Source of the DNA: Alternaria dauci
Taxonomy: Eukaryota; Ascomycota; Dothideomycetes; Pleosporales; Pleosporaceae
Length of the DNA stretch: 64,000 nucleotides
NCBI RefSeq assembly: GCF_042100115.1
Contig: NC_091272.1
Location: 3,410,001 to 3,474,000 of the forward strand
Reading direction: 5' to 3'
In this document: positions 39,001 to 63,600 of the stretch, in pieces
Layout of the letters: each line of letters starts with the position of its first letter
Numbering within the stretch: the stretch's first letter is position 1
The notes under the pieces: model-generated
The model's database searches: none
Seen by the model: only the letters and a program-made list of their open reading frames with translations
Told to the model about the DNA's origin: nothing
Translations under genes and position numbers: made by a program

Positions 39001-41691
39001 TTAATAGTAACTCTATAAAGTACCTAATTAGTACTAACGCTTAGATAAATATCTTATAACTTAGTATAGCCAGAGCTATAAAAATACTATATAAACTTAT
39101 ATATTATAAACTTAGTAACGTACCTTAAGGAGTTACCTTAGTAAATAGTATATATAATCCTTTTATTAGAATAGCTTTTAATATACTTATATAAATAGTT
39201 TTAGTAATAATACCTATTAACTTCTAAATAGTTAATAATATTACTTAATTAGTAATACTAAGAGGTCCTTAGTATATATATATAAAGATAACTATTTAAT
39301 ATAATACTTTTAGGAGAGTTATATATAAGATACTCTTAGAAGATAGTACTAAGAATATAGTCTTTATAGTATCTAACCTAGTACTATATTACTTATTATA
39401 GATAACACCCTATAAAGATAATAAAGATTTAGAAAATAAGTAGTAGGTATAAGTATAGAGGAAGTATACTTACTTAATAATAAGTCCCTAGGATTAGGTA
39501 TAATTAATATACTTATAAATAGTAATTAATATCCTCTTAAGGTAGTAAGGGTAAAGTATCTTTATAAAGTAGTATAGTCTAATCCTACTACTAGACTTAG
39601 AGAGTATAGAATAATCTTTAGTAAATAAGATATCTAAAGTTAGATATAATAGATAAATCTAGTCTTTATAATAGCTATAAGTAAAGTAGAAGACTTAAAG
39701 AGTCTACTAGAACTTAGTTAGTATATAATTATAAGTAAGTTAAACTAAGAATATATAAACTAAGAATAATTACTTTATATTTAAAGAAATAATAACTTAT
39801 ATATACTATATAAAATAGTAGATAAGAAGGTTTAGCTAGTAGATATTCTTAGATAAAAGGTACTAATAGAATTTAGATATAAGGACTAGAAGGAGAGGGT
39901 AATTAAGTATTAACGCCTATATATTAATATTTAAAACTCTAATCTAAGTCCCTATAACTATTTATTTAAATAGCACTATGCTATATTTCTAAGAGGAACC
40001 TAACTAATAATAGAAAAGATTACTAAGTTATATATTAGAGAATAGCTTATACTATAAGAGTATAATATAATAATTAAAATACTCTATAATTAAGAAGGTA
40101 TACTATTATAGTAATTTAAAGAGGTAGGGTAGATTTACTTAAATATCTACTTACCTTATAAAATAAGGACTATACTATATAAAGCCTAGTAGATATATAG
40201 CTTTATAGTCCTAAAGGCCCTTAAACTAAAAGTAATTATAATAGTTAATATATACTTAAATAGGGGTATATAGGAAAGATATAATAGCTAATATTATAAC
40301 CTATAGTACTAAGTCCCTAAGAAAGATAAAGGAGTATACTAGATTAGTAATATATAAAAACTTAATAGCGTTACTATAAGAGACGTAAATCTTCTTCCTA
40401 CTACTAATAAGTTTTCTAAACGCTTTACTAGCTATAAGATTATATCTTTTATAGACCTATTCTCTAGCTATAACTAAATTACCCTCTACTTAGATAGTTA
40501 AGATATAATAGCTTTCTAGACTCTAATTAGCCTTATTTAATCTTATACTATAGTTATAAGTACTATAAATTTAGTTACTACCTTTTAGAGAGTAATAATA
40601 AAGATCTTAAAAGACTATTAACTAGAGATAATACTATTTATAAATAATATTACTTCTAGGGGACCTAAAATAGACTATAGAAGAGAAGAATTATTCCTTA
40701 GAGTATAATAGTATATCTTAGAATATATCTAATAACTAGATTAAGTCCTAGTAGATATTAAGTAAGTAAGAGGTATAGTAAATAAGAAGAAATACTACTT
40801 CCTTATAGAATAATTAGAAGTAGTAGGATATAAGGTAAGTCTAGATAGCTAGTACCTTAATACTAAGAAAGTTAATAAGATTTTAAACTAGCTACCTTAT
40901 AAGAACTATATAGAGGTTTAATTATTTATAGGTATTTATATATACTACTATATTTAGGTTAACTATTTTACTCTAGTAGTAAAACCCCTATTCTATCTCC
41001 TCTAAGAGGATATAGAGTTTATATAGCTAAAGGAATAAGATAAAGCTATATATACTTTAAAATAGTTTATTCTTTTAGTACTAGTACTTATTAATTTAGA
41101 TTATTTAGATATCCTTACTAATAAAATATTCTTTATAATAGATACTAGCTAGGATAGAGTAGAGGTATATATTAAGTAAATTAAGAAAGATAGTAGATAT
41201 TACCTAGTCTAATTTAAAAGTACCTTATAGTTAGTATAAGAATAAATATAGTATTCTATAAAGCTAGAATATAAGGTAGTACTATAAGCCTTAAAGAAGT
41301 TTTAAATATATCTATATAGAGTATACTTTACTATTAAAACTAATATAGCTACTCTTATTACCTAACTTAATAGATCCTCTATAGATAACCTAGGATTAGT
41401 AATAAATAAATAGATATCTACTATTATACTCTAGGATTTTAATATTAAGTATATCCTAAGTAGGAAAAATATAGTAGTAGATACTCTCTTAAGGTACCTA
41501 AAACTTAAGGAATAAGAACTACTAAAAGAACCTAAAGATAATCTTAAAGAATTTATTAATTATATAATTAAGAATATAAATATACCTTCTTTACTATTAC
41601 TAGAGGGGAGAATACTCTAGTAGGAGTTTACTAATACGTCTAAATAGTATACTTAATTCCTATTAAACTTAAAAATACTAAGAGATATAAC

Positions 41692-42765
41692 TCTATTTAA
41701 ATAATAAATATACTAGTAAAAGACATAAGTATAATACTATTAAAAGATACTATAATAAATTATAGTAAAGGTATATTTTCTAAATACTTAGTTTTACTAT
41801 ATATAGCTATATATATTTAATAATAGATAGGTTAAAGCTAAAGCCCTAAACTTTAAGTAGTTCTAGAAAGTTATAATAATATTAAAAAGAAGAGGAGTTT
41901 TTAAACTATAGTTTATAGCTTATATCTAGGCTTATAACTATAGTACTTAAGAATAAAGAGATATTTAAATAACTATTTAAATTTTCTTCTCTTAACTCCT
42001 ATACTATAATATATCTAGTATATCTAATAACTCTAGTAACTCTAGTATCTCTAATATAAAGGTTATTATATATAATATTATTATAGGTATAAAGCGCTTA
42101 GTTTTAGAGGGCCTAGTAACCCTCTTAGTAACTATAGTAGCTACTATTAAGTAGTATAGTAAGTATAAAGTTATTATTAAGATTAACCCCCTTAAAAGTA
42201 ACTTTAAGTATAAGTTCTAGACTTATATTTAATCTCTTAGCCTATTATATAGGTTTACTAAAAAAGAATTTAACTATATATTTAGGGACTTAGTATTTAT
42301 TACTAAGGTCTTCTTTATAGGTACTACTATTATACTAGCTAAGAAAGGTATAAATAAAGCTAATAAGTTATTTACTCTTCTTTAGGATATATAGGTTTAG
42401 TTTATATATAATATATAGGTTACTAGTACTATAATAACTAATAAGTAGTATAAGTACTTAGATAAGGTCTATAATAGGGACTTTAAGGACTAGCTACTAT
42501 ATATTATAGATATTATTAAGGAGCTAAGATAAGTATAGGTAGTAGATAATTAATTTAATAATATAGAAGGCTTAGGATATAATATAATAGGATTTAGGTA
42601 TATAATAGTAATAGGTATAGTATAATAGCTATAATAGCTTTAATAGCTATAGTAGCTATAGTAGTAATATATAAGGGTACTACTACTAATATATAGGCTT
42701 TATAGCTACTTAAAGGGAATTATAATTATAATTATAACTATAACTATAACTATAACTATAACTAT
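41692..42765 (+). mobile_element. Small ORF element, RIP-mutated outer copy, left portion
   Basis: Relative of the clean element at 51,527. It starts with an AT-rich terminus matching the clean copy after C-to-T/G-to-A changes and is preceded by GAGATATAAC (41,682-41,691), which recurs at 44,396-44,405 after the element's right end: a 10-bp flanking direct repeat. A frame beginning near 42,022 (ATA in place of ATG) stays open for about 200 codons except for RIP-type stops. It aligns with the clean ORF, including the GINxA, the EQxxY and the GDxxxWL regions, and ends in a CAG-derived Gln-like run. The copy is cut in its hexanucleotide tract by the inverted copy that follows. Its right portion is 44,123-44,395. 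Confidence 0.8.
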
Positions 42766-44122
42766 CCCCCCTAGGCCTTAGGGATAGGGCTTATAGTATT
42801 ATCTTATATTATATTACTAAGAAATTTTAAAACTAAGCCTAAACTATCCTAGTATATTTAGAAGTCTCTTTTTACCTATAATACCTCTTTATCTATCCCC
42901 TATATTACGCCTAGCTATACTACCTTAACGTCCCTACTATTATAATTACTACTAATACTACTTAGAGATTAAGAAGCTCTATTATATTATAGTAATTATA
43001 GTAATTATAGTTATAGTTATAGTTATAATTATAATTATAATTATAATTATAGTTATAGTTATAGTTATAATTATAATTATAATTCCCTTTAAGTAGCTAT
43101 AAAGCTTATATATTAGTAGTACCTTTATATATTACTACTATAGCTACTATAGCTATTAAAGCTATTATAGCTATTAAAGCTATTATAGCTATTATACTAT
43201 ACCTATTACTATTATATACCTAAATCCTATTATATTATATCCTAAGCCTTCTATATTATTAAATTAATTATCTACTACCTATACCTATCTTAGCTCCTTA
43301 ATAATATCTATAATATATAGTAGCTAGTCCTTAAAGTCCCTATTATAGACCTCCTCTAAGTACCTATACTACTTATTAGTTATTATAATACTAGTAACCT
43401 ATATATTATATATACACTAGACTTATATATCCTAAAGAAGAGTAAATAACTTATTAGCTTTATTTATACCTTTATTAGCTAGTATAATAGTAGTACTTAT
43501 AAGGAGGACCTTAGTAATAAACGCTAGGTCCCTAAGTATATAGTTAAATTCTTTTTTAGTAAACTTATATAATAGGCTAAGGGATTAAATCTAAGTCTAG
43601 AACTTATACTTAAGGTTACTTTTAAGAGGGTTAATCTTAATAATAACTTTATACTTACTATACTACTTAATAGTAGCTACTATAGTTACTAGGAGGGTTA
43701 CTAGGCCCTCTAAAACTAGGCGCTTTATACCTATAATAATATTATATATAATAACCTTTATGTTAGAGATACTAGAGTTACTAGAGTTATTAGATATACT
43801 AGATATATTATAGTATAGGAGTTAAGAGAAGAAAATTTAAATAGTTATTTAAATATCTCTTTATTCTTAAGTACTATAGTTATAAGCCTAGATATAAGCT
43901 ATAAACTATAGTTTAAAAACTCCTCTTCTTTTTAATATTATTATAACTTTCTAGAACTACTTAAAGTTTAGGGCTTTAGCTTTAACCTATCTATTATTAA
44001 ATATATATAGCTATATATAGTAAAACTAAGTATTTAGGAAATATACCTTTACTATAATTTATTATAGTATCTTTTAATAGTATTATACTTACGTCTTTTA
44101 CTAGTATATTTATTATTTAAAT
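42766..44122 (-). mobile_element. Small ORF element, RIP-mutated inverted copy, complete
   Basis: A full-length copy (about 1.36 kb) in reverse orientation: it begins with the C-run that is the complement of the element's G-run end, continues through the inverted hexanucleotide tract (about 42,990-43,084) and the ORF body, and ends at the AT-rich 5' terminus. It is a close inverted match of the outer copy on both sides, making a long imperfect palindrome of about 1.1-kb arms. Insertion was into the hexanucleotide tract of the outer copy, so the flanking duplication cannot be told from the repeat itself. Confidence 0.8.
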
Positions 44123-44395
44123 AACTATAACTATAACTATAACTATAACTATAACTATAACTATAATTACTATAATATAATAGAGCTTCTTAATCTCTAA
44201 GTAGTATTAGTAGTAATTATAATAGTAAGGATATTAAGGTAGTATAGCTAGGCGTTATATAAGGGATAGATAGAAAGGTATTATAAGTAAAAAGAGACTT
44301 CTAAATATACTAAGATAGTTTAGGCTTAGTTTTAAAATTTCTTAGTAATATAATATAAGATAATACTATAGGCCCTATCCCTAAGGCCTAAGGGG
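44123..44395 (+). mobile_element. Small ORF element, RIP-mutated outer copy, right portion
   Basis: Continues the outer copy after the inverted insertion: the remainder of the hexanucleotide tract, then the conserved 3' section containing GAGCTTCTTAATCTCTAAG and TTTTAAAATTTCTTAG, and the terminal GGGG run. The same section is found uncorrupted at about 52,670-52,879. Together the left (1,074 bp) and right (273 bp) portions add to about 1.35 kb, equal to the clean copy. Confidence 0.8.
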
Positions 44396-46699
44396 GAGAT
44401 ATAACCCTATAAGAGCTTTAGGTATAAAAAAAGAGAGCCCTAAACTTCTTTATCTAAGATAGAATACTATTTAAGAAAGCCTTACGTAATATAGCTATTA
44501 GGAGAGTTATAAATAATCCTAACTTATAATCTACTATAGTATAGAATATTTATTAATAGATTAGATATTATAAAGTAAATATAGTATACTTAATACTTAC
44601 GAAATATTACTAGTAGAATAGGATATATAACTATATTTATATATATTTAGTAATATACCTAAATTATTAACTAAGATTATTAAAAAAGATAGTAGATATA
44701 CTTACTAATACGTATAGCTTTATAATCTAAGAAATAGTTATTATTAATATAGTCTATATACTATAGTACTTTAGAAAGAAATACTTAGTTATTATAAAGA
44801 ACTATCTTAGTAGATAGCTAGAAACCTATATACTATTAAATAACTAGTCTAAGACTATTACTAAGTTTATTTATAAAAATATTATATATAGATAGAGTAT
44901 AATAAGAAAACTTATAGTAGATAGTAGACTAGACTTTACTAAAGTAATTAACTATTTAGTAAAAACTTATAAGATTAACTATATATAGTTATTAGTATAT
45001 AACTTATAAGTAATAAGTAAGATTAAAAGAAGATATAAGCTTATTATAAATACGCTAGTAAAACTCCTAGGTCTATAGATTAAGAATCTTCTTATAGTAC
45101 TTCTTATAAATAGAATTTTAATATAAGAATAGACTAGCTACTCTCTATATTAGTTAGTTACTAGCTAGAACCTAGTCCTACTAATTAAACTATTACTACT
45201 AATATAGTAGACCTTACTATTCTAATAAGTTAAAGATTAGGTATAGCTACTTATAATTTAAGTAATATAGTTAGATCTTAGAGATTAGTTTACTAAAGAA
45301 GCTATAGCCTATACTAACTATATATATATAGCTAAGAAAGAATATTAAGATAATATAAAAGAAATTTATTAAGAAGATATTATACTTAGAGACTTAGTAC
45401 TTCTTTAGAATTTAATATAGGAAATTAATATATTAAGAGATTAAAAACTTAATAAAAGATAGCTAAGACTATATAAAGTATAAGAGGTAAGGTTTAACTA
45501 TAGAACCTACTACCTAAAAGACCTTAATAGTACTATTTTCTTATATACTATACTAGGAAAAAGGTTAAAACTCTTCTACTAGCGTCTTAAAGATAATATT
45601 ATAGAAGAAGATAGAGGTAATATAAAACTATAGAACTTAGAGTACTAAGAAAATAGTAGTACTATACTAGATATTTTAGTTATTCTAGATATTAAAGAAT
45701 TACTACCCTAAGACTATAAACTATTAAGATAACTAACTATATAATAAAAGGATAATAGGATAGTCCTTAGAGTAGTTATTACTAAATATCTAATAGAAGA
45801 AGAATAATAGGTATATATATAAGATTAGGGAAATTCTAACTCTAAATCTAACTCTATTACCTCCTTAGTATCTAAATAGACTATAGGATAGTCTATCTTT
45901 CTAAGAAGGGGAGGAGGAGTAACTTTTAGTAGTACTTTAATACCTTTAAGTACTCCTTTATTAATTTAGGATAATACTAATTATTTATACCTTTAAAATA
46001 TAGAATCTAGGTTTATAAGCTATAACCTAAATTCTATACCCTAACTACTAGAATATATTATAGACTATATACTATATAATAATATATTATAAATCTTTTT
46101 AGATCCTAGAAAATAATAACTTTAGTATATTTATAATACTACCTTAGGAATAGAGAGGAAGAAAATAATAATACCTAGTCTAGATCTTTATTATATAAAG
46201 TAAAACTTTTATAACTAGCTATTAGGTAGTATCTAAGCGTAGTTCTAGTACTATATAAATAAAATATATCCTTCCTTTCTTCTTTCTTTCTTCCTCTACT
46301 AAGAGTTATAAACCTAAAATCTATAGCCTTAGTAATAGGCTAACTTATAGCCCCTAATAATTAGCTATTAATTCTAATTAAAGAAAAATATAAAGGTAGA
46401 GAACCCCTCTATAGTATACGCGCCTATAGTTATATACTATTATTTTACCTTTACTTTTATATACTCTTTTACCTTTACTTATATTACTACTTAGGTAATA
46501 TTAGCTAAGGAAGCTATAAACATACTACTATAAGATAGATAAAAGTAATACCTCCTAGCTTTAAGCTCCTAATCTCTTTCTCTTTCTTTTAAACTACTCT
46601 TTACACTTAACTTAATTATATATAAAATATTTAAACTATAAGAGTAGTAGCTAAAAGTAGTATAAAAAATATCTTATACCTAATTACTTACTAGCGCAC

Positions 46700-49080
46700 T
46701 TAGTTCTATATACTAAAGTACTTTATATTACTAAAGGAATAGTAATAGATAGCTCTAAAGAATAAGAATAAAAATAAGGATAAGGGTAAAGTACTAGTAA
46801 TAATACTTCTTTCCTTATAGTAAACTCTACCTCTAATAACCTTAGGTTTATTATCTAATTTTAGTAATCTTAGAGTAGGAGATATATCTAAACTACTTAA
46901 TAAAGAGTAATATATTATAACGTTAAACTAAGAGCTAGTATTAGCTAAGTAAGATATTCTTAATATAGCTTAATAGGCTCTTATTAGTGTCTAAGACTTA
47001 GTATATAACCTTATTAACTAACTAGAAAATAAGACTCTATATTAGTAGTATATAATACTAGATATTTAGTTCTATAATAATTCTTAAGCCCTTAAGCTCT
47101 TCTATAATTATATACTTAAGGTAATAGTAATATATAAGAAACTTCTAGGCCTAATAGATAAGTATAGAGGATATAAAGCCTTTATAGAGTATTACCCTCT
47201 TATTAAAGAAATAACTAGTATAAAAGATAGATATAAAACTAAAATAATTAGTATATTTAAGACTATTAAGAAACTAGAACTAAGATTAGTTAAGAACTAC
47301 CTCTATAAATAGAAGTCCTATATAATAAGTACCTTCTAGATAATAGCTAATATAGCTTTTATACTAAAGTATATAAGGCTTATTAATACTATACTTTTCC
47401 TTAACTAAATTATAATAGCTAGACTCTATATAAAGAATCGCGCTAATAATTAATTTATTAATAGATAGGACTAGGTAATATTAAAATCTAAACTAAAGTC
47501 TATATACTAGTTTATAGTAGATAACACCTTTAATATAAACTAATATAAAGTATTAGTAGATAGTAATATTAAAGGGTTAAGATAAATATTTAAAGCCTAT
47601 TAAATAGAGGAGGATAACTTTATCTATAATATAAAGAAGCTTAGGCCTAATATATAATTAGAAACCTAACTACTATTTTAGATAATACTACTCCCTTACT
47701 ATATATAAGTTATAGTACTTAGTTTAAGCTTAGGGTTTACTACCTATATCTAGTAATAAGAGAAGAACTTAAAGAATAAAGGACTTAAGATATATCTAAA
47801 GTACTATTTAGCTATCCTTATTAATAATAAGGTTAGTTAAGTAGAAGAAGGTATTACTAATCTAGCTTTTATAATTTAATTAGAAACTTACTCCCTTAGA
47901 GAAGTAATAAATAAAGCTAAGACCTTAGGAGCTAATATACCTTTAGAAGTATATAAGATAGTAGAACTAAAAGCTAGTAAGAAAGTAGTAGTAAAGAGGA
48001 CTACTATAATTAATACTATAGCTAAGAAAAATATTTTAATAGCTAATATTCTATTACTACCTATTCCTAGGAGGAGTTTAAGAGTACTAAAGCTAACTTC
48101 TACTTATTAATAGAGTATAAATACTATTAATTCTATTCTAGAAGATAATAAGTATTAAGAGGAAGACTTAGATACTTATAAATAGTTAACTTAAATCTTA
48201 GTAGACTTATATAAGTATATAGATATAAGGTCTATCTTACTAGCACTATTAAAGAAAGTATATAAGAAGAATATATCCTTTAAAGACTTAGAATAGTATA
48301 TAGTTATTAAGGAATAGTACTATAAGATTTATTAGGATAGTAATAAGGTTAAGAACTATAATAAGTTATACTTTATCTATAAGCGTACTACTACTATAGT
48401 AATAGGACTATTTAAATAAGTAATATCTAGTATAATACTTAATAACGCGCTTTACTAGCTCTATTACTTATATAGCTAATAGGATATTATCTAAAGTAAC
48501 TTATTTACTTTAATACTCTTTATTAGTTATTACTATAAGAATTAATAAGAAGATAATATACTTAGCTATTATTACTACTTAAATAAATATAACTTTACTA
48601 GCTTTAACTAAGATAAGATTATTAAAGACTAAGGAATAGTATCCTTTTATATAAAGTTTACTAATAAAGGTAATATTATTACTAATTAGCTTAACTACCT
48701 ATTTAGAGATAAGGAAATAGTAGAGATTAGTAACTAAAGTTTTAATATATACTAATACTACCTACGCTATATAGGAGGAAAAGAGAACTTAGGATAGCTT
48801 TATAATATATACTACTCTTTAATTTAGTAGGTTATACGTACTAACTTAGGATACTAGTTTAGCTACGCTATACTCTAGAAGGAATATATATTAATTTCTT
48901 ACCCTTACTATACTAAGTATATAATAAAAGGGGATAAGACTACTTTCTACTATATAGATCTTAATTTAGAATAGGCTAGCTAAGATAGTACTAGGTAAGA
49001 TATAATCTAAGGATTAGTATCTTTTAATAATAAAAATAATTAGAACTATACTAAGATTCTAACTAGTTTTTATAAGATAG
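46700..49080 (+). other. RIP-degraded coding-like region, unassigned
   Basis: Heavily RIP-converted, yet the plus strand keeps long stretches that read as protein once TAA and TAG are taken as converted CAA, CAG or TGG codons, for example around 47.1-47.6 kb and 48.7-49.0 kb (GGKENLGQLYN, KYIIKGDKTTFYYIDLNLE). I could not match these to a transposase, reverse transcriptase or host family. It lies between two gypsy elements and may be a DNA transposon or a captured gene. Confidence 0.4.
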
Positions 49081-49082
49081 TT

Positions 49083-49780
49083 TTAGACTATATTAACTAG
49101 CGTACTAAGGTTAGTATTTATTCTTCTACTAGCTATTATAGTAGAGAAACTAGGGGAAGTGCGAGTAGTTAAAGAACTATTAGGCTTAGGGGTAGCGCGG
49201 GAAAAAGAGGCCCTATAGAAACTAGCTAAATAGTGTTTAGCTACGGGATAATAACTATAATATACACTCCTTTTAATTTTTCTATATCTACCTACTACAT
49301 TAAGCACCTGTTCCTAATAGAGAATTAGTAACGAAATACTCTACTATATAGAGCGACTAATTAAAACTTAAACCTTATAACCTTTTAACCTTAGGAAAGC
49401 TATAAGCGTTTACTAAGTGTAAAATCTATCTAAAGACTTTATAAGACGCTCTGTCTTATAGTCTTAGATAGTAAGAGAAATTAGAATAGATATAGTATAG
49501 AATAAGTAAGAAATAATAAGAGAATAGTAATAGTATACAGTAACCTAAAGAATATTTAGTAATAAAAAAGCGTAAAGACTAGAGAACACGAATAGGCGGG
49601 GATATAGAAAGACCCCTAAGAAGTAAGAAAGATATAATAGAGGTACTAAGTTACTAATAATACTAGGGTTATAACTAGAGTATAGCTGCGCTACACAAGG
49701 CGGTATATTATATAAAGAGTATAGGCTAGGATAATAATCCTTTAGACAGCCGTATAGATAAAGAATATAATAGAGCGTAT
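49083..49780. other. Patch with weaker RIP
   Basis: Unlike its surroundings, this stretch retains CpA, TpG and CpG, for example CTGCGCTACACAAGGCGG near 49,687. A 74-codon minus-strand frame (49083-49307) has no recognisable features. Sequence that is single-copy, or too short or divergent to trigger RIP, would look like this. It contains the small hairpin at 49,441. Confidence 0.5.
49441..49459. other. Perfect 7-bp stem-loop
   Basis: ATAAGAC, five-base loop GCTCT, GTCTTAT. A short palindrome in the weak-RIP patch; function unknown and possibly chance in AT-rich DNA. Confidence 0.6.
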
Positions 49781-51513
49781 ATAGATAGGCTAAATAATAT
49801 ATAGGGCTAAGAATAATAGTAATAACCCCTATAGAGTACTACTAATAAGGAAAAAACTAATAATAAATAATTAGATTAATAGACTAAAGATAGCTAACTA
49901 AGATAGTATCTTAAGATATATAAAGAAGAGGGTAATTACCCTCTTACTAAAAGACTCTTAGATATATAAGTAACTAACTAGTTAAACCTAAGTACTACTT
50001 TATATAGTACTTATACTCTTTATTATAGCCCTTACTATACTTATTATATACGTCGCGCGGATAAGTAAGAACTAATAAGTAAGGAATAAGATAAGTAAAA
50101 GAACCTAATCTATTACTAAGCTACTAGCTAGAAGCTAAAATATAGATTAATTTACTTCTACTACTAAAATAAAGAAACTAGAAGCCTTAGCTAATAGTAT
50201 AATAATACTAGTAGATTTACTAAGTGCACTAGTAGTAATACTAGGAAGCTCTATTTCCTTAGATATTCTACTAGTGTAGTCCCCTAATAATAAAATAATA
50301 AAGGTCCTTTAGATAATAGTAGCCTTACTCTAATAGCTAGGAAGCTAAGACCTAATAGTAGCTATATAACTCCTACTATACCTAGCTAAAATAGTTCTAG
50401 TCTTTAATAGTACTAATATTACTACGTTCTTAGAACACTTTAAAGATATATCTAAGTACTATAGGTTTAGTAATAAAGCTATAGTTAATAGGCTCTTAGC
50501 TTATTATAAGTAGAAGTAGTAAACTATTATCTAAGCTTCTAATACCTATAATATAGCTTAGGTAAATAAGTCTTAGAAAGACTTTAGAGAAGCGCTTAGG
50601 AGGTTATTTAGGAGTAATAACTAGAGCTAGTAAGAAGTATAAGCTAAATACTTTAAATATTAGCTTCTTTAGTATTAAGTAAGGTCTAATCTAAATATTA
50701 AGGAATACTTATAGGAGTTCTAGATCTATAGTAAACGTTATATTAAAGCTATAACTATTAATAAAGAATACTAAGGTTTCTATCTAGTTAAGGGATTACT
50801 ACTTAGATAAGTAACTAAAGTACTTAAGAGATTTAGCCTTAGAACTAATAGCTCCTAGGAGTTTAGCTATAAGAAGATTAGTAACTACCTAACTACTTAC
50901 CTTAAAGTAGAAGAGGAAGCGCGTATACTTAACTTATTAGAGGTAATTAAAGAAATTACCCCTAAGGTAGAGTTTACCCCGCCTAAGCTAATAGCTATTT
51001 AGTATACACCTATAGTAAGCTATAACCTACCTAACGTCCCTATATAAATTTTCTAAGCCCTAAAATTATTTATCTTAATTAGAGAAGATAATTAGTACTA
51101 TTAACTAACTTAGTTACCCTCTAGAAAGGCCCCTACTAATATAGAAGTAGATAAGTTAGTTAATAAAATACTAAACCTAAGAATTAATTAGGCTAGCCTA
51201 GAACTTAAACCTTAGAAGCTATAATAGATATCCTAAGAAATAGAGCTTATAAGTAACTTAGGTATTTATATAGAAGTAGAATATAGAGTTAATAATATAA
51301 TAAGCTAGAACCTCTTAATAAATAGTTAAGAACCTAAAAGGCTATAGCTAAAGGGTTAGTACTAATCCTAATAGTATAGTAGGTATTAATAGAAGGGTTA
51401 TTAGACTTATAATAACTAATTATATACTACTAATACCTAAGGCTACTAGAACTATAACTCCTAGTATAGTTAAGGTAGAAACTAAGCGTAGTCCTTTAAT
51501 ATAGCTATAAACT

Positions 51514-51526
51514 ACTAGGTGTATAA
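51514..51526. repeat. Left copy of 13-bp direct repeat (probable target duplication)
   Basis: ACTAGGTGTATAA directly left of the clean element; identical to 52,880-52,892 on its right. It marks the insertion site in the RIP-degraded gypsy element. Confidence 0.85.
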
Positions 51527-51916
51527 TTCAATTCAAATGATAAACGTGCTGGTAAAAGACGCAAGCACAACACTGTTGAAAGACACTGTGATAAATCGCG
51601 GTAAAGGTGTGTTTCCCAAACACCTGGTTTCACTGTATGCAGCTGTATATATTCGACAATAGATGGGTTGAAGCCAAAGCCCTGAACTTCAGGCGGTTCT
51701 GGAAAGTCGCGGCGACGTTGGGGAGAAGAGGAGTTTGGGGGGAAGAGGAGTTTTCAAACCATGGTCCATGGCTCGCATCCAGGCTCGCGACCATGGTACT
51801 CGAGAATGAAGAAATATTTGAGCAACTGCTGGCTCTTCAAATTTCCATTTCTCAACTTCCACTTCAACACTCCATCCCGAAGCTTACCACCAAAGAGAAA
51901 CACCTTCTTCAACACC

Positions 51917-52408
51917 ATGCGCCTTGTGACGTGCGATCGCGTCATGGGCGTCGAGCGGCCATTCCTGGAGTTGCAGACGGCACTCAACGTCGACACCGAC
52001 GCAGACGCAAAGCACTGGTACACCAAGGATCAAATCAGCTTGAACTACGATGATCTCAAGCCTCATGGTGTCTTGAGCCCCTTCCTGGACGCCTGCCTCT
52101 CCTCTCTGAACTTGTCGGATGATACCACTGAGGACCAATATGAAATTCTCTTCCACACGGATGGCCCGTTTGCCGTGACTCTTGTTCGCCTGGGCAGCGT
52201 CGCTTTGCTGGCCAGCACCGGGATAAACACAGAAGCGAGGTCATCTGTTGCTGTAGAGCAGAACGTTCGCATCGAGAAGCTGAGTGACATGATAGCGGCT
52301 GGGGGCACGCTCACGATAGAGCAAGAGGCGTATGTCAAGATGGTCATGAGCGGGGACTACGATGGATGGCTGTGGTGGGTCCTCGGCCAGCTCATCCCCA
52401 TCTTGTGA
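51917..52408 (+). CDS. Element-encoded protein of unknown function (163 aa)
   Basis: The ORF of the clean mobile element. Start 51917 (MRLVTCDRVMG) is preferred over the in-frame ATG at 51761, because alignment with the RIP-mutated copies begins near here and the preceding sequence looks like leader. The 163-residue product has the segments VERPFLELQTALNV, YEILFHTDGPFAVTLVRLGS, LLASTGIN, LTIEQEAYVKMV and GDYDGWLWWVLGQL, of which the GIN, EQ..Y and GD...WL positions recur in the decayed copies. No nuclease triad, zinc finger, reverse transcriptase motif, signal peptide or clear membrane segment was seen. The reading frame continues after the TGA at 52,406 for 43 further codons that are also partly conserved. 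Overlapping frames exist (51607-52053 plus) but are not conserved in the same way. Function unknown. Confidence 0.7.
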   Translation: MRLVTCDRVMGVERPFLELQTALNVDTDADAKHWYTKDQISLNYDDLKPHGVLSPFLDACLSSLNLSDDTTEDQYEILFHTDGPFAVTLVRLGSVALLASTGINTEARSSVAVEQNVRIEKLSDMIAAGGTLTIEQEAYVKMVMSGDYDGWLWWVLGQLIPIL

Positions 52409-52540
52409 TCGTATCGAGTAGGTACGGCTGACGATCGATTCGACAACGACGACGACGACGCGGGAGGCTTGGGATACGGCGCGATGGGACCTATCGGGTG
52501 CGCAGCGGCTGCGGAGGAGTTTAGGCGACGGTACTGCTGA
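52409..52540 (+). other. Conserved in-frame extension beyond the TGA
   Basis: In the frame of the 163-codon ORF, directly after its TGA, 43 codons run to TGA at 52,538-52,540 and include ADDRFDNDDDDAGGLGYGAMG. The RIP copies show the matching GLGY and MG positions in frame with their ORF, without a TGA at the equivalent place. The clean copy may carry a nonsense mutation, a readthrough stop or an unrecognised splice. Confidence 0.65.
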
Positions 52541-52570
52541 TGTATGGGCTTCGTAGCCGCTCGAAGGGAA

Positions 52571-52626
52571 TTGTAATCGTAATCGTAATTGTAATTGTAA
52601 CTGTGACCGTGACTGTGATCGTGATA
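52571..52626. repeat. Degenerate hexanucleotide tract of the clean element
   Basis: About nine six-base units of the form GTAATC / GTAATT / GTAACT / GTGACC. The same tract appears as TATAAC/TATAAT units in the RIP-mutated copies at 42,719-42,765, 42,990-43,084 (inverted) and 44,123-44,168. Confidence 0.85.
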
Positions 52627-52879
52627 GCGGCGGTGCTTGCGCTCTTGAAATGTGATTGCTGCGATGCGATAGAGCTTAATCTCTAGGTAGTATTAGCAGT
52701 GATCGTGATAGTGGGGATGTTGAGGCGGTGCAGGGCGTGATGTGGGGGATGGACGGAGAGGTGTTATAGGCAAAAAGAGACTTCTGAATACGCTAGGACA
52801 GTTCAGGCTTAGTTTCAAAATTTCTTGGCAACGCAATATGAGATGACACTGTAGGCCCCGTCCCTAAGGCCCAGAGGGG

Positions 52880-52892
52880 ACTAGGTGTATAA
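52880..52892. repeat. Right copy of 13-bp direct repeat
   Basis: ACTAGGTGTATAA directly right of the clean element's GGGG end; matches 51,514-51,526. Confidence 0.85.
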
Positions 52893-55800
52893 GAAACCTA
52901 GTTACTATAAGAATAATTACCTTATACTATAAGTATTTATAGATAAAGGTTAAGTATACCTTAATAAGTAATCTATACTCTAGTAAGGAATAGAAGAAAA
53001 CTTATAAAGTAGAGTACTTAATCTTAGCTAATAGCTCTAGGCTAAGAATCTTTTAGCTTAGATTAAAAAGAGGTAGCTTAAATAAGATATTAACTTACTA
53101 ACTATTATAGCGCTATTTAAGGAAAAACCCCCTATAGTAATAGTAGAAAATAATACTATCTTAGTATAGCTAATCCCTAATTCTACTAGAAGCCTTTAAG
53201 AAGATAAAGTAAACTAATACTAGAAATTATCTAGTATCTTTACTAAAGATAAGTTAGACTTTAGGCTATAGCTAACTACCTTTAGTAAATATAATAATAA
53301 TATAGTTACTTCTACTATAATAATATATATAATAGTAGAATAGAAATCCTACTCTAGCTATAATAAGTTTAAAGTATAGAAGTTAATATAGAAAGTAATC
53401 TTATAAAGACTAAGTAATAAGTATATTCTATACCTAAAAGGTTATAAGAGCTAATCTAAATACCTTTTAAGTAATAGGAATATTAATAAAGATAGGATAG
53501 TATAGTTTAAAGAAACTAATAATATAATAGACTAGGATACTAATTTTAATAACTACTAGAAAGAGGTAGTAGATAGTAAAAGAGATAATAATAACTAGTA
53601 ACTACGAAAGAAGAAGATTATAGATAAGTTAGAGTCTAATATATAATTAGTTATTAAGAGTATCTTAAATATAATAATACCTCTCTAAATTAGTACCCTT
53701 CTAGGTAATATACTAGAGGTATATAAAAGCTTATTTAATATAAGCTATATATTAGAGGAGCTAGACCTATTTAAAATTAACTTAATAGTTAATAAGGACT
53801 ATTTAATATAAGACCTACCTAAGCGCTATTTAGGAGGTAATATTAATATACTCTACTTAGTAAATACTCTCCCTAACTATATCCTAGTAGAATCCTAGGA
53901 AGGCTAGGTTATTAACTACTAGGGTATTAAAGTAGAATACTAGATAGACCTAGAGATTAACTATATTTAAGAAAATATTATTACTAGTACTAAGCCTAAT
54001 AATATAGAAGAAGATAACTATAACTATCTAAGAGATAATTAGAGGCTATATAATAGGGTAATAAGTATTAAATACCTTTAATAAGACTACTTAAAAGTAC
54101 TAATTAATATCTAAGGTAATTTATTTCTTATACTACTTAATTTAGGAGTAGAGCTTAATATAATTAAGAGAGAATTAGCTAAGAAAGCTATACTACTAAT
54201 AACCTTACTCCTAGGAAGTATAAGGGCTACCTAGATAGTTACTACTAATAGTAGTATAGTAAACTTTATAGGGATTATCTAGGTAGTCCCTATTATTATA
54301 GGATAAGTTAAAGTCTAAATAAACTTCTTTATAGTAGAAACCTATACTAATCTAATTATATTTAGTAATCTATTTCTAATAGACGCTTAGGTAAGGTTTA
54401 AGTATATAACTAATAGGCTAATATACTATTATATCTTTAGTATTAATAGCTAATATAATACTAGGTTTATATACACTAAGAGTAATTAACTATCTAAACC
54501 TAACCTCTATACTAGACCTATCTTAGGAAAAGGAATAGGAGTATAAAGACTAGTACTCTACTCTATTAACTTACTAAAAGGCTAGAAGGTAAAGTAGTAT
54601 TTAGTATAGTAGAGGTAATAGAAGTAAGAATAGACTTAGAAGAAGAACTAAAGGGTATTTAACTAAGGATAAAATTTATAAATAAGTAAAAGAAATTAAA
54701 AAGTAAGTAAGAGAGGAAGAAATAGTAATATTACTTTTTATAGGAAAATAGTAACTTTATAGGTAAAGGTATTAATAGTAGTATTATTATAAGAGATAAA
54801 GAAGGACTTTATATTATTATAATAGAAGGTTATAAATAGCTATTAGACTAAGTACTAGAAGAAGTATTATAATAAGTATATAAGGAAAATACTACTAAAG
54901 ATATAGAGGATATATTTTAGTAATAAAGCCTTATAGAAGTAGATAAAGGTAAGCTAATACTTATTAAAGTTATAATAGTAGGTCCTATACCTCCTAGTTA
55001 GGCTAATACTATATTTAGGCTAAATAATATTTAGATTAATAAAGTATATAAGTAAAAGGGGGTTAAGGTTAAACTTATTAATAACTTAGGCTAACTAGTA
55101 TATAATATTAAAAGAAGACTTAATTAGAAAGAAAGGGTAGCTATAAAATAAGTACTAAATAGTAATAGTAATATAGCTCCCTTTTACTAGTACTTTAAGC
55201 CTTACTATATACTATTCCTAAGAGGTACTTATATTACGCTTAAATATATTTTAGAGATAAAAATATCCCTAGAACTCTAGCTAAAGGAAAGGGAAATACT
55301 TCTAGAAGTCCTTTACTAAAGAGAGTAAGTACTAGCTTAGGACTTCTATAAATTTAGATAAGTTAGTAGAGATATTATCCCCTTATTTATTATTAATATA
55401 GTACTATACTAAGCTTAGAGGGTAGATTAGTTCCTAGTCTTATAAAAGCTTTATTAGGTAGTTATTAAAATAATCTAAGATTATATTAATAGGGGTATAC
55501 TAGAGCTTTATAAGAGCTAATACTATAATCCTTAGTTCTTAGTAGTAAAGAAGGATAAAGGCTATTAGCTTATTAATAATACTTAGAAACTTAATAGAGT
55601 TATAATAATAGATACTAACCTACCTCTTAATCCTAATAAGTTTTTAGAAGAGTTTACTAGGTATATAGTTATAAGTCTCTTAGACTTCTTCTCTAGGTAT
55701 AACTAAGTTAAACTCTATAAAGACTTAAGAGATATAATAGCTTTCTCTACCTTACTAGGCCTTATATAATAGTATACTTTACTAATAGGTACTATAAACC

Positions 55801-58800
55801 TAGTAGCTAAGTTTATAAGGGTTATAACTAAGATATATAGAGAGTACATCCCTAATTACTATATACTATACCTAGACGACGTCTATATTAAGGGGCTAAA
55901 GATAAGGTATAATAATAAGGAAGTAGAGCTAGGTATTTAAAAATTTATAGCTAAATACCTTTTAAATATTAATAAGGTATTAGTGGATATTAAATATACT
56001 AGAGCTACTATATCTAGGTATAAGTTAGATTTCTACTACCCCTCTATAATAGTAGTTAGATACTATATTAATAAAAAAGGACGTTACTTAGATAAAAAGA
56101 AAGTAGAAAAGATTACTAATTAGCCTAAAGACTATAATACCAAAGAAGTCTATATATTTATTAGTATATATATCTATTATAGTATATAAGTATAAAGCTT
56201 TACTATTATAGTAGCTCCTCTCTTTAAGCTACTATATAAAAACAGACCCTTTAAGTAAACTAATAAAGAGAAGTATACTATAAAGTACCTTAAAAAGGTA
56301 CTTACTTCTACCCCTATATTAGTATCTATTAACTATAGGAAACCCTTATAATAAATTATCCTTTTAGTTAATAGAAGTAAGAAAGGTTAAGGTATAGTTA
56401 TTACATAGGTTAGTCTAAACAGCTATTAGTACCTAATCTAATTTAAAAGTAGAATTTAGTTAATAATAGAGTAAAACTAAGACTCTAGTAAATATAAGTG
56501 TAAGGCGCTACTACTTACTCTGAAGAAGTTTTAATTATACCTCTATAGAGTATAATTTATAGTAGAAACTAATATAAAGATACTTATTATATAGCTATAA
56601 CGTAGTGCTACTAACTTACTAGGAGCCCTAATTATATAATAGCTAGCCCTCCTTAATATATAAGACTTTAATATTATCTATATTATAAGTAAGAAAAATA
56701 TTATAACTAATATACTATTAAGAAGACTAGAGCTAAAAGGCTAAGAACTACTAGAAGAGCTAGAAGAGGATATAGAAGACTTTATTAATATATACCTAAA
56801 TATAGTTTAGCTTACCTTTAAGGAAGTACTAGCACTCTAGTATAGTATCTATAACGTAGACCTTTTATTTAATAAATAACTATTAGTAGAAGGTTATAAT
56901 AAGAAGTTATAAGCTATTATAGCCTAGCTCCTATTCTATAAGCACCTAGAATACCTCTCCCTAGCTAAGTTCTATAAGTTTAAGAAAAAGGCTCTTTAAA
57001 TAATAGTTAGAGAGTACTATCTATTTATAATACCTATAGGTAGAAGACCTTTACATAGGGTTATAGATAACCTAAAAGATTAGCTAAGGATTATTTAGTT
57101 ACTCTATAATAAGTCTAGCTACTAAGGTAAGGAAGGGATATAGAGGAAAGTATAGGTAAGATACTACTAGAAAGGATAATATAAGTAAGTTAAGAAGTAT
57201 ATCTAATCTTATACTAAGTCTTAATTATACGTATTAGTAATAGTATAAAAAGAGTTATAGCTAATAGAGCTACCTAATATCCTATTTAAATAGATTACTA
57301 TTAATATTATATATATACTACCTAGGCGTAATAGTAAAAAGTTCCTAGTAGTAGTACGTAATTATATCTTCTAATAGGTAGAGGCTAAAGCGCTAGCTAA
57401 GAATAACTTAAAAAGTATACTAAAGTTCCTTTAGTATAACGTCTTCTACTAATAGGGATTACTACTTAAAATATTAATAGATAGTAGCCTAGAGAATAAG
57501 GGACTTATTAAGGACCTCTAAAGCTAATAAGGGATTAATTAAATTACCTCTAGTATATACTACCCCTAAGGTTAGGGTCTAATTAAATAAGGTTATACTC
57601 CTATAGTAGCTACCCTAAAGAAGCTTCTAGGGAACTAAGTAGATAACCTACCTAATATCCTTTAGGTAGATTAAATAACTATTAAGTATACTATAAATAA
57701 AACTCTAGCGTTCCTAGTATATAGTTAATAACATATACTCCTAATTAAGCTATTAATACCTATATAGTAGATACTACTATAGGAAGAAGTTTATAATATA
57801 GTAATACTCCTTACTATAAGAGCTAGGTAATTTAGTAGAAGAGATAAGTAATTCTAAGAAGCTATTAATTAGACTATCTAATTACGCTATAAGAATAAAG
57901 ACTATTTTAATAACTCTAAGGTATTTAGGTCTAAGTAACTTTTAATTAGTAACTTAGTACTACTATAAAACTTATTCTATAATAGTAATAGATTAATACT
58001 TATAAAGTTTCTTCCTAAGTAAAAAAGTTTATTTTATATTAAGAATACTAATAAAAAAGGATAGCATTAACTAGAAGAATTAGATAGTACTAAATTCTAT
58101 AGTTATATACTTAGTAATTAGCTAAAGATCTTTCACTAATATATAATTATTAATTTAGAAGAAATTTACTCTTAACTCTATACCTAATAAGAATAGACTA
58201 TAGATAATTAAGCTAATATAGGTAGTAATTTATCTAGTAATAAAGATAATCTTAAAACTAAGAAACTATAGTATAGATAGGATATTCTAGAATTAAGTAA
58301 TAAATAAGCTACTAGTAAGAGATATAGTTCTTATTTATACTAACTCTAGGAAATCTAAGACGTTAATTAATAAGAATATAAAGATCTTATAAAGATAGAA
58401 TCTAAACTAAGCTATATAATAGTAGTTATATAATAATAGAAGCTAGGGTTTAACCTAAATAACTATTAGGCGTTCTTATCTAGTTATAAAATAGCTATTA
58501 AATACTAGTCCTCTAAGTTTAAGAAGACTAACTACTATAAAGGTAAGAAAGTAGTAATAATACTATAATTAAACTATTACTATTATATAGAAGATTAGTA
58601 GGGAGGAGGAGAGGATAGTAAAGGAAGCTTACTAAGAAACCCTTAGACTAAGTTTAAGTATACCCCCTTAAAGTATAGAAAAGAGAATTAAGAGGAGATT
58701 TTATATTTATTATAATTAGTTATAGTACTATCTAGAATAGGACTAATACTAGTAATAGTAGATTAACTACGCTTAGTCTTCTTAGATAGTAAAGGTTTAT

Positions 58801-58899
58801 TAGACTCCTTACTCTTACTAAGAATATAATAATAAATATCCTTAGAATTATTATTATTAAAAATACTACTATTAGTAAGAAACCCTAACTTCTTAGAAA

Positions 58900-60600
58900 C
58901 CTTAATAGTTAGCTTATAAGTTAAGTGCTAAACTAAATAACCTTTAAAAGAAGTCTTAAGTACTAAAATAGAAGACTTTTTACGTAGGGCCTATTTCTTT
59001 ATTAGTAATAGTATTACTAGAGCTAAAGTAGTAATACGCTTACGAGGAGAAAGTGTCTTATAGTTAGCCTTAACTAGTAACTTAGATAATAAGGAAGTCT
59101 TACTAGTATTTAGCTTATTAATCTAGTACTAAAGATCTTTTACTTAAAGTTCTTTCTACTAATTACTTATAAGCTTAATATTAAGGTTAAGATAACTAAT
59201 ACACTTCTTAGGATTAAACTTAGTATTATTAAGATTAATATCTTTAGCTATTAAAGTTACCTAGGCTATACTCCTCTTATAGTATAACTTAAGAGTATTT
59301 AGAGGCTTAGTAGTAAAATTAGTAGGGTAAATAGTATAGGGGAGGAGTAAAAGTAATATATAAGATAGGGTAGGCGTAGAGATAGTAGATATAGAAGATA
59401 TATTACTATATATATAAGAATAACTTAATATATATAGAGTTAGTAATTATTATATAAAATAGTAGAAGAGGGTATCTAAGAGGGAATTAGGTACTTATAA
59501 GTTATAGAATAAGACGCCTTAGCGCCTAAGGTATAGTAGTTTATATAAGTCCTATTTAGAAATAAGAAGTTATTAATAATAGAGGTAGTATAGGTACTAA
59601 AGGGTTTAGACTCTAACCCCTTCTTATAATTACTATATATCTTTATAATACTACTAAACTTAGAGTTAGTACTATAAGTATTAGTATAAGTGTAGATAGT
59701 CTCTAGATACTAGTAGATTAGAGCTACTAGGTAGGGCTTAAAGATATAGCACTTCTAACTACTAGATAACTAAAAAAACTTACTAAAAGTAATACTATCT
59801 ATAATAAAGAGCTAAAGGCCTATTAGGTAAGTAGAAAGAGTAGTATTATTAAGAGAAGGAAGAAAAGTAGCGTAAAGGATAGGACTAAGAAAATAACTAG
59901 TAAGGTAAAGTAACTAGAAGTACTTAAGGAGGCCTACTAGCTATACTAGAGTAATCTCTTTATTAGAGTTATTCTTAACTATAGTATTAGAATATTAGAA
60001 TAATATTTAAGTAGACTTAGAAAGGAAGGTTTAATTTACTAAACTCTATAGTAATAAATATAAAGGAATATAATAGAGGAGGTACCTAGAGCTTAGTAAC
60101 CTAATCCTTAGTAAGACTAAAGATAAATCTTAAGTAGTAAGTATTAATAATAGTAGAAGGTATAGTCTATATAATATTTACTAGGTTAGTAGGTATAGAA
60201 GTAGAATTATAAGTATCCTTATTATTATCCTACTTAAAGAGCTAGGTAATAGTAGCCTAATTAGTAGTACTTACTTATTCTTACCCTAAGATAGCGCTAG
60301 TAATAATTAAGGAAGGCTTTATATAATAGTAATAAGATAGGTAAAGTAGAAGAGAATCTAAAATATTATAGTCTATTACTAAAGCGTTCTTAGGTAATAG
60401 TAAAGGAGACTAGTTATCTATATTAAAGTCTAAATCTATAATAGCCTAGTTAGTAATCTTATAGCTATTATCCTCTTAGCCTTATAGAGTATTATTTAGA
60501 TCTTAAGTAGGTAAAGTAGAATAATATATAGAGGAATATAAATAAGAATTAGACTTACTATTAGAGCCTAACACTAAAGCCCTCTTAGTTATAATAATAT
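58900..60600 (-). repeat. Left unit of a degenerate tandem pair, RIP-degraded
   Basis: Shares ordered blocks with 61,877-63,600, offset by about 2.97-3.0 kb. Examples are the block around 58,905-59,110 (with TTTATTAGTAATAGTATTAC) and the block around 60,230-60,410 (with AGTAATAATTAAGGAAGGCT). The minus strand gives Lys/Ser-rich coding-like stretches interrupted by RIP stops. No protein family recognised. Confidence 0.6.
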
Positions 60601-61876
60601 TAGTAGCTAGAACTAAGGATAAGGAAAGGAAAAGTAATATAAGGCAGGAATTAACGCGCGACTAAATACTAAGCGCACTATAACCTATAGTAGTAGTAGG
60701 TTAAGCGGGTAGGGTATTATTATAAAGAGGAGTAGATATTATTATAAAGTATATATAGATAGTAAGGATATAAAAAAAGAGGTAGAGAATAGAGAGTAAA
60801 GTAAGTTTAAAGTAGTAAAGAAGAGTAGAAAGAAGAGATAAGGGTAGTAAGGAATAGATAGGCTAGTATTATTATTATAGAAAAAGACTCTAACTATTTA
60901 CTATCTAAAGGCCTATTATAACTAAAGTAATAGACTTACTTTTAAGGTAAGAGATAGTATAATACTAAAGTAATAATAGGGTATATTATAAGAAATTAGT
61001 AAGTCTAAAAATATACTTAGGATATAAGAAATAATCTAGACTATATAGTGTAAGGAACTAGGAATATATACTAAAATATAATTTAAGGCTAAAGAGCGCT
61101 TAACTTAAATAAGGGATAAACCTAACTAGATAGTTAGTAGAACCTAACTACCTAAGGGAGAACTATATCTAATAACCTTAGATATAATTTAGAAAAGATA
61201 AGATATCTAGAGAACTCTACTAGAATATACTTAGAATAGAAAGAAATAAATCTAGAGTCCTAAGAACTACCCTAAGAAGTCTAGGAACTAGAATTAAGAA
61301 AGATAGAATTATAGCTTAGGAATAAATATCTATTAAGTAGCTATTACTAATCTCTAAAGTTAAAAACTTATTATAAATATAAGAATTACTTAGTCCTTTA
61401 GTCTACTCTATTTTCTAAATACTCTTTAGAAACTAAGTTTTAAAGAAGAAGGGACCTTTAATTTCTTAAGTAAGGGAGGGAGTAGTATAAATACTTTATA
61501 AGAAAAGAAGATTAGAAGTAATACTAATATCTTTAAAAGGAATAAGAAGTAAAATAAAATAGTTAAATATAGATTTCTATAAGAACTATAGCTAAAAGCC
61601 TATTAGAATAGTAGTAATATAACTAGTTAACTACTTACTACTAAAACCTAGAGAAGTATATAATAAAGACTAGAAACTAGTATTATTACTACTAGACTTA
61701 GTAATAGAGGTGTCCTTAACTATAGTAATAGGCTTAATAATAAGAACTTTAGGCTAAAAAGTAGAATTAATTAACTCTATATAATAATAAAGACTCTTAA
61801 TATTAATAGGATATTAGCGATTAGGAAGATACTTATAAAGAAAGGCCTTCTTACGCTTTTTAACCTACTCCTTTAG

Positions 61877-63600
61877 AGCGTTAATAGTTAGTTTATAAAG
61901 AGAGTGCTAAACTAAATAAGCCTTAGAAGAAGCTAAAGGAGCTAGAGTAAAAGACTTCTTATAAGGAGCCTTCTTCTTTATTAGTAATAGTATTACTAGC
62001 TTTTAAGTAGTAGTATACTTAAGAGGAGTAGGTATCTTATAGGTAGCCTTCTTAGGTAGCTTAGATAGAGTAATAACTTAGTTATTACTTAACTCCCTAA
62101 CTAAAGATAGCTTAGTAAGAGCTAAATCCTTAGAGGTAATACTATTAGTATCTAAGCTAAGCTTAGGCTTAAAGTCACTAGCCTTACCCTTATTTAACTA
62201 GCTTAAATAAAGACTATAGCTAGTAGTAGACTTCTTACTAACCTAGCTAAAGGAAGAGTAAGTAAATAGGGGTTTCTTAGTAGGTATTATAGCCTTACTA
62301 GCGCTAGTATAAGTAAGGAGAGGTAAAGTAGGAGTATTAAGGATATTAGAGGAAAGGATAGAGGAGAGTTAACTAATATAAGTAATACTATAATAAATAG
62401 GAATATTACCTAGAAAAAGTTTAAATTAGTAAAATTTATAAAGAAGAAAAGAAGAGGCTATCTAAAAGATAATTAGGTACTTATAGTAGAATAAATAGGT
62501 ATTTAAGGCGCTACTACGAACGTAATTAATATAAATACTATTCTTATATAGTTTACTATTAATATATATAATAATATAGATACTATAGACTTTAGCGTAA
62601 TAGTTAGAGTTATAGTAGCTATACGTATAACTAATATTATTAGGGTTATTAATACTACTAATTATAATAGTACCCTAATAGATACTTAGTATTAAAGCCT
62701 TAATATTAGAATTAATAATAGTACGCTTTATAAAGCTAGATAAGTAGAAGTATAAGCTAATAGTCCTAAACTTAATAAGAAGATTAAGTAGCCTCTTAGA
62801 GTTAACCTAAAAGTCTAAAAACTTATTATTAGGGCGAATTACAAATACTAGGAGCGAAGGTCTAAGGGTAAAACTAGTATACCTAAGTCTCTAGAAGTAG
62901 AGCTAAAGGGATCTAATCTAATTATAAGAGAGGACTTTATTAGTATTAGTAATAACTATATAAGGTAGGATATTAAAAAGATATCTAGAAGAATAATAAA
63001 TAGAATTTAAAACTAATAGTACTCTTTAACTATATTATAACTAGAATTAGAAGAAGGATAAAGAAAGAGCTTAAGATTAATAGGACCCTTACTACTAGGA
63101 ACTACTCTCTTTAAAGGAGAGATAGGTTTAGCTTTACTAGCGTTAGGCTAGATAAGAGAAGGTATAGCCTAAGGGATATTCGCTAGGTCTATAGGCGTAG
63201 GGGTAGAATTATAGATATCTACATTATTATCTTACTTAAAGAGCTAAGTAATAGTAGCCTAATTAGTAGCGCTTACTTATTCTTACCTTAAGATAGCCCT
63301 AGTAATAATTAAGGAAAGCTTTATATAGTAGTAGTAGGATAGGTAAAGGGAGGGAGAATCTAGAATATTATAGTCTATTACTAAAGCGTTCTTAGGTAGT
63401 ATAGGTAGACCCTTAGATATTATAAAGATAAGATCTTAAATATTCTAGTTAAAGACTAAGCTATTAGAGTCCTACTCTCCCTAAAATTAGTTATTAAGAT
63501 CTTAAATAAGTAAAGCTAAGTAATATAGTAGAGAATTAAAAATAAAATTAAACTTACTATTAAAGCTTAACGCTAAAGCCCTCTTAGTTATAATAGTATC
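61877..63600 (-). repeat. Right unit of the degenerate tandem pair, RIP-degraded
   Basis: Counterpart of 58,900-60,600 in the same orientation; matching blocks are at 61,877-62,097 and 63,230-63,405. The intervening sequence (60.6-61.87 kb) is less similar. Either two copies of one element lie side by side or an old segmental duplication was RIP-mutated. The unit may extend past the window end. Confidence 0.6.

Follow-up and report, generated by a model that had tools for sequence, protein, structure and literature searches.

It is already known that spliced RNA can be retroposed and that LINEs can help other elements in trans, and several described systems share features with the element analyzed in this work. 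SINEs, which are mobilized by LINEs, are non-autonomous elements with many copies, fixed 5' and 3' ends, target-site duplications (TSDs) and help in trans, and the present family resembles them in these respects, its help in trans being presumed. However, it differs from SINEs in that no known small-RNA head was found (Rfam, E 0.1), in that its copies are spliced and 1.35 kb long, which exceeds the usual SINE length, and in that its source is a gene with 17 introns. Processed pseudogenes and other retrocopies, like the copies described here, derive from a spliced transcript, lack introns and are flanked by TSDs, whereas a high copy number, an apparently non-coding source, the lack of poly(A), a constant 3' end and an EN-RT gene beside the source set the present family apart. 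Two genes next to the source, ORF1 and ORF2, recall the fungal LINEs with a CCHC ORF1 and an EN-RT ORF2, in that ORF1 has similar, sub-threshold zinc knuckles and ORF2 an endonuclease and an RT; the pair presumably resembles fungal LINEs of the Tad-like kind. In contrast to these LINEs, the two genes are divergent, no second copy of either was found, and ORF2 has one supported intron and a possible second one. Intron-containing Penelope-like elements are another case of a retroelement linked with introns, but their copies keep introns whereas the copies described here lose them.

A further comparison is offered by histone H3 in Pseudocercospora, where intronless, RIP-destroyed copies lie beside an intact, intron-bearing original (PMC6710886). 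There, the copies are carried by a hAT DNA transposon and the authors favor purifying selection as the reason for the intact original (PMC6710886), whereas the family described here would have moved by target-primed reverse transcription (TPRT) from an apparently non-coding gene of small exons. Among the open-licence literature matches listed, as judged by title and start of abstract, none described a mobile family whose source is non-coding, spliced and interrupted by multiple introns. New within the literature covered, in the sense that it was not seen among the matches listed, is a high-copy family whose apparently non-coding source has 17 introns and a single-copy EN-RT gene as its neighbor.

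A clean island in RIP-mutated DNA

The window, which is the whole stretch of 64,000 nucleotides of Alternaria dauci DNA that was analyzed, contains an island at positions 51527-52879 with a GC content of 0.522, as compared with 0.241 and 0.262 in the flanks at 36001-51500 and 52901-64000, respectively. The RIP indices flip as well: TA/AT is 0.63 in the island versus 1.80 and 1.97 in the two flanks, and (CA+TG)/(AC+GT) is 1.23 versus 0.03 and 0.03. The abrupt-edged, GC-balanced island described in the initial annotation is thus borne out, as are its insertion after the surrounding DNA had undergone RIP and the 13-bp direct repeat on both sides, namely, the TSD ACTAGGTGTATAA at 51514-51526 and 52880-52892. 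The view of the island as a small mobile element without TIRs or LTRs also held, none being visible by eye at the aligned ends of the copies.

The feature itself is read as a full-length spliced retrocopy on the minus strand at 51531-52879, with its sense 5' end (CCCCTCTGGG) at 52879 and its 3' end (...CATTTGAAT) at 51531, a sense position being converted into a window coordinate by subtracting it from 52880. The interval originally given for the island therefore stands as an island, except that its first four bases, TTCA (51527-51530, minus strand, sense TGAA), are an extra at the 3' junction that is not present in the six other clean copies; the part common to the clean copies is 51531-52879. 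The empty site expected for the island in the sense orientation is GGTTTC-TTATACACCTAGT-AGTTTATAG. The two RIP-mutated relatives reported for the window were also recovered, with the added detail that one is nested in the other. The older copy (41692-44396, minus strand) is split into two parts, at about 41692-42765 and 44155-44396, by a RIP-mutated copy at 42766-44122 (plus strand, by local alignment), the orientation of which is opposite to that of the island.

Copies across the genome

A search of the 34.9 Mb of the genome (10 contigs) with the end patterns, allowing up to 3 mismatches, gave 102 5' ends and 183 3' ends, the latter count taking in subtelomeric pieces, and the reversed end patterns used as a control gave 0 5' and 0 3' matches genome-wide. 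A DNA search with the island returned at least 56 matches, many of which are pieces of one locus (40 of 226 candidates scored). Seven full-length clean copies, the island included, are 95-100% identical, and further copies at about 70-80% identity look RIP-mutated, with a GC content of 0.30-0.32 and a TA/AT of 1.8-2.0 in the three that were measured. The initial annotation would have been refuted by an absence of copies outside the window; many were found, with different flanking repeats, so that many copies and TSDs occur together as in SINEs.

Pairing of the ends, for which 77 of the 102 5' ends and 74 of the 183 3' ends were used and telomeric 3' ends were omitted, showed a spacing of 1262-1389 nt in 35 of 42 pairs, versus 2167 nt in the source. 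The other seven pairs are the source, a stacked pair on C4 and five pairs at 2645-3816 nt, two of which are nested copies. The C4:2959144 pair (2174 nt) was considered as an unspliced copy, but this was rejected, as its first 197 nt are spliced and then followed by a second 5' end.

The seven clean copies (L001-L007) are mosaics of exon haplotypes, with 42 informative sites and three minimal four-gamete intervals. Exon shuffling by trans-splicing was tried as an explanation of this mosaic and rejected: all three intervals span exon borders, but allelic recombination or template switching explains the pattern equally well.

An intron-bearing source locus and the splicing record of its copies

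The whole element sequence was found, interrupted by 17 introns, at C3:2815990-2818210 on the minus (sense) strand. This putative source locus, L017, has introns of 44-60 nt and exons of 31-176 nt. In the automatic alignment of L017 with the island, 14 of the 18 inserts of at least 20 nt were bounded by GT-AG or GC-AG on the sense strand, which is the minus strand of the island, within the slack of the alignment, as compared with 0/18 on the other strand and with 1.6% for pieces placed randomly in L017. The four inserts that did not fit were introns 4 and 14 and the two halves of intron 15, the edges of which were set by hand, resulting in 16 GT-AG introns and one GC-AG intron (n = 17). A CTNAY motif was present 9-18 nt ahead of the acceptor in 16 of the 17 introns, versus a mean of 1.7 in shuffled introns. 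Elsewhere, intron sequence of L017 was matched only in an aged copy at C9:722895-723157 (40 of 121 candidates scored). Rfam searches of L017 and L048 at E 0.1 gave no match to an RNA family, including a Pol III head of the tRNA, 7SL or 5S RNA type; splicing, as predicted from these sites, suggests transcription by Pol II, and the source RNA is apparently non-coding.

As in processed retrocopies, the source introns are gone from the copies at the splice points, with exceptions in 4 of 327 copy-by-intron cells (counted where each flank had at least 8 letters) and an inexact fit to L017 at the junctions of introns 14 and 15. The retained introns, namely, introns 2 and 3 in L058, intron 13 in L018 and intron 16 in L019b, are each homologous to the intron of L017 at the same place. 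Since the removal of introns requires an RNA intermediate, the mobile form would almost certainly be a spliced RNA. Steps in the length of the copies fit tandem acceptors at introns 3, 4, 5, 6, 7 and 14, with three spacings at the intron 4 acceptor (in 7, 10 and 2 copies), bearing in mind that one step at intron 14 presupposes an AG in place of the AA of L017, and those at introns 6 and 7 a C/T change relative to L017. The copies can hence be seen as a fossil record of the past splice choices of the source RNA. In the region of intron 15, copies contain a variable 17-bp repeat. Two older copies, L014 and L015, have a 17-bp unit near sense position 1125 in tandem repeat. At the intron 8 junction, 39 extra nt were observed in 7 of 17 copies (L009, L010, L011, L014, L015, L021 and L058), which are present neither in L017 nor in the clean copies.

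Exons 3-8 and 15-16 vary among the clean copies, largely by transitions, while a block of approximately exons 9-13 is invariant among all seven. In the window, this block corresponds to 51833-52425 (minus strand) and agrees with the exons of the source; the 4 and 2 mismatches counted in two bins are artefacts of the alignment next to introns and disappear in a pairwise alignment. L017 differs from the clean copies in exons 3-8 and 15-16, mostly by RIP-type transitions. The clean copies thus did not have L017 as their exact template, and other alleles or loci would have supplied templates. The RIP-type nature of these differences further implies that some templates were touched by RIP and that source alleles are not fully RIP-proof.

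Ends, duplications and target of the insertions

Full-length copies have one common 5' end (within one base) and one common 3' end. No poly(A) is present at the latter; the copies end in ...CATTTGAAT, or in ...TTTAAAT where RIP-mutated, and the TSD follows. A TSD of 8-14 bp was detected in 16 of 17 full-length or internally deleted copies, whereas the control of 272 mismatched flank pairs had a median score of 0, a 95% point of 3.5 and a maximum of 11.5; this maximum probably comes from the pair L005/L007, which have a target sequence in common. These two copies have nearly identical target sequences in related host repeats, and the target of L012 is similar. Including the short copies, of which 9 of 10 have a TSD (a figure obtained without a control), the total amounts to 25 of 27, the two copies in which a TSD was not detected being L014 and L051. 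As the element ends in AT, the TSD may extend up to two bases further.

Base preferences were read from 25 sites, L014 being omitted and L066, an eleventh truncated copy that runs past the end of the sequence read for it, being left uncounted. The base ahead of the TSD is T in 21/25 sites, the first base of the TSD is A in 20/25, and T at position -4 and A at position -2 each occur in 17/25. Entry appears to be mostly at TTAT|A, the flanks being often AT-rich.

Copies truncated at the 5' end were found as subtelomeric pieces, about 220 nt long, and as short copies. When placed by maximal duplication, 7 of 10 short copies start at sense 1230-1233, where the last exon begins; of the other three, one starts at 1215 and two start at 1268-1269. 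In the island, the last exon covers 120 nt (51531-51650, minus strand), and it is also found alone elsewhere as short insertions, one of the supporting searches having scored 40 of 92 candidates. Insertions of about 120 bp that start at the 3' splice site of the last intron are L048, L049, L050, L051, L052, L054 and L069, six of which have a TSD, and L067 and L068 are the two that start at 1268-1269.

TSDs, 5' truncations, site preference and the absence of poly(A) together fit TPRT by a LINE-type enzyme, and on this sequence evidence insertion by TPRT is very likely. The 3'-terminal 160 nt folded no better than shuffled sequences (z 0.90), so that an RNA structure as recognition signal or pause site found no support.

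Neighboring EN-RT and CCHC genes

The element itself contains no RT, and no domain was found in its longest ORF (Pfam). ORF2, the EN-RT gene at C3:2811040, lies upstream of the source on the same strand and is a 1034-aa open frame with Exo_endo_phos_2 and RVT_1 domains (Pfam). It matches a protein of Alternaria burnsii P0001 (80% over 74%), and a predicted 47-nt intron joins it to an upstream exon resembling the N-terminus of this relative. Behind an in-frame TAG at C3:2814142-2814144, the frame is otherwise open for another 636 nt, which may contain a second intron, and the protein may be truncated behind the RT domain. The source starts 1.2 kb past the end of the open stretch of ORF2 and 1.85 kb past the TAG. 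Divergent from ORF2 is ORF1, a 612-aa gene with a zf-CCHC match of 18.7 bits, which is under the Pfam cut-off of 20.8, and with a relative in A. burnsii (56% over 87%). The relatives named for ORF1, and the best one for ORF2, belong to Alternaria species. DNA and protein searches of the genome gave a single match each for ORF1 and ORF2 and thus no second copy of either.

The protein search with ORF2 gave 3 candidates, all of which were scored, at two loci. The second EN-RT locus, L057 (C3:3101427-3104419), is 37% identical to ORF2 in the RT part; its frame is split by a stop inside the RT match, which may be intronic, and no match to the RNA family was found in the 7 kb read around it. No LINE copies were found by protein search besides these two single-copy EN-RT loci. 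The chance of the source being located within 2 kb of one of the two was estimated post hoc by us at about 1 in 2000. Given this position, itself a post hoc argument, and the scarcity of EN-RT genes, and not a common 3' end, we favor with modest confidence the neighboring EN-RT as the mobilizing enzyme. This would be a case of an EN-RT gene, with relatives in another species, that appears to copy the RNA of another locus instead of its own.

Apart from the EN-RT genes, the RVT_1 matches in the genome are probably of the LTR type. Of all RVT_1 matches genome-wide, 26 are equal in score (141 bits) and free of stops; they represent intact, probably LTR-type elements among many RIP-destroyed ones and look as if RIP had been inactive recently.

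Mechanism and alternative explanations

Taken as a whole, the best explanation, and one that we hold with considerable confidence, is that the island arose as a processed retrocopy, its parent being an apparently non-coding RNA that comes from the source on C3 and is spliced many times. The locus at C3:2815990-2818210 would specify an RNA with 17 introns, which would be spliced out ahead of copying, with alternative acceptors and occasional retention. A LINE-type endonuclease would nick the target, mostly at TTAT|A, the primer from the nicked target would pair with the 3'-terminal AU of the RNA, and an RT would copy the RNA by TPRT. The likely enzyme would be the EN-RT just upstream of the source, perhaps together with the divergent CCHC protein. 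The protein genes would stay fixed and only the neighboring RNA would move; the copies would then be destroyed by RIP, with the source persisting as a generator.

A less probable but still considerable alternative is that the spliced-RNA retroposon was mobilized in trans by another enzyme, either the second EN-RT at C3:3101427-3104419 or a LINE lost from the genome, with the neighboring EN-RT as a bystander. A second EN-RT does exist, the in-frame TAG in ORF2 slightly raises the odds of this alternative, and the short copies L051, L052 and L054 have common variants that are missing from L017 (by eye), which hints at another source. However, the only full intron-bearing locus found is less than 2 kb from one of the two EN-RT loci, and the other EN-RT has the stop in its RT match and the RNA-family-free surroundings mentioned above. 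The relation between source and copies could also be reversed, L017 being a derived copy that gained 17 introns in an introner-like burst, and one intron-bearing locus against about a hundred intronless ones would naively argue for this. Yet RIP-aged copies keep homologous introns, the choice of tandem acceptors varies among copies at six introns, the introns of L017 are unlike one another except for 15 bases common to introns 6 and 7, and no duplication flanking L017 was seen by eye, which makes such a burst extremely unlikely.

The initial annotation had described a single-ORF element whose protein could be a mobilization enzyme or a passenger. The corresponding alternative, a protein-coding mobile element in which a 215-aa ORF on the plus strand (51761-52408) serves element or host, is in line with the span of this ORF over most of the invariant block and with its score of 0.139 in a crude codon measure, within the range (0.076-0.261) of the ten long window ORFs, not verified genes, on which the measure was trained. 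However, antisense frames of 4 of these 10 ORFs score as high (0.16-0.26), neither a Pfam domain (E 0.01) nor a homologue (E 0.1, 179 candidates) was found for the 215-aa ORF, its frame is interrupted in the source locus by introns for which splicing is possible on the opposite strand alone, and the invariance extends to silent positions and is thus no sign of protein selection. This alternative is very unlikely, and the ORF, which is antisense to the spliced RNA, is judged fortuitous and probably not a gene, so that neither the single-ORF description nor the proposed role of the protein could be upheld: the element is better described as a retroposed spliced RNA read from the other strand. 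That the element itself has no recognizable transposition protein would agree with DNA-level transposition (Helitron, Crypton or cut-and-paste) or with the capture of a cDNA by an LTR integrase, but intron removal demands an RNA intermediate, and the variable 8-14-bp TSDs, the 5' truncations and the extra junction nucleotides fit TPRT, and no TIRs or LTRs are visible at the aligned ends, so that movement of this kind is very unlikely.

RIP and the persistence of the source

RIP is expected to kill a repeat along with its source. If the retrocopy explanation is correct, a still RIP-free source has given rise to a family with about a hundred 5' ends: neither the source nor the ORF1-ORF2 stretch has a RIP signature, and TA/AT in L017 is 0.50 for the exons and 0.88 for the introns. 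The source shares no uninterrupted block of more than about 176 nt, the length of the longest exon, with its copies. In the work on histone H3, about 400 bp at 80% identity is reported as the requirement of RIP, and its authors consider, among other explanations, that the original stayed intact because it lacks a 400-bp contiguous match (PMC6710886). Shielding of the source from RIP by its introns is conceivable here, although we lean slightly against it; if introns are such a shield, splicing would amount to an evasion of genome defence.

More tentative still is the idea of a split, intron-shielded system, in which ORF1 and the EN-RT gene, both fixed and single-copy and neither of them copying itself, would act in trans on a neighboring RNA gene, the 17 introns of which would interrupt its homology to the spliced copies and so keep the source under the recognition length of RIP. 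If this were true, it would be the introns that allow an element to survive RIP in many copies, be it as a parasite or as a generator of AT-rich islands that the host maintains.

Subtelomeric copies

Subtelomeric units, spaced about 25 kb apart, were observed at the ends of C1, C3, C4 and C5, each with a 220-nt spliced and truncated copy of the element. There are at least six such units at the start of C4 and at least four at the ends of both C3 and C1 (40 of 121 candidates scored). In the L025 unit, the 220-nt copy lies beside a 1468-aa gene with AAA_11/AAA_12 domains and zinc knuckles.
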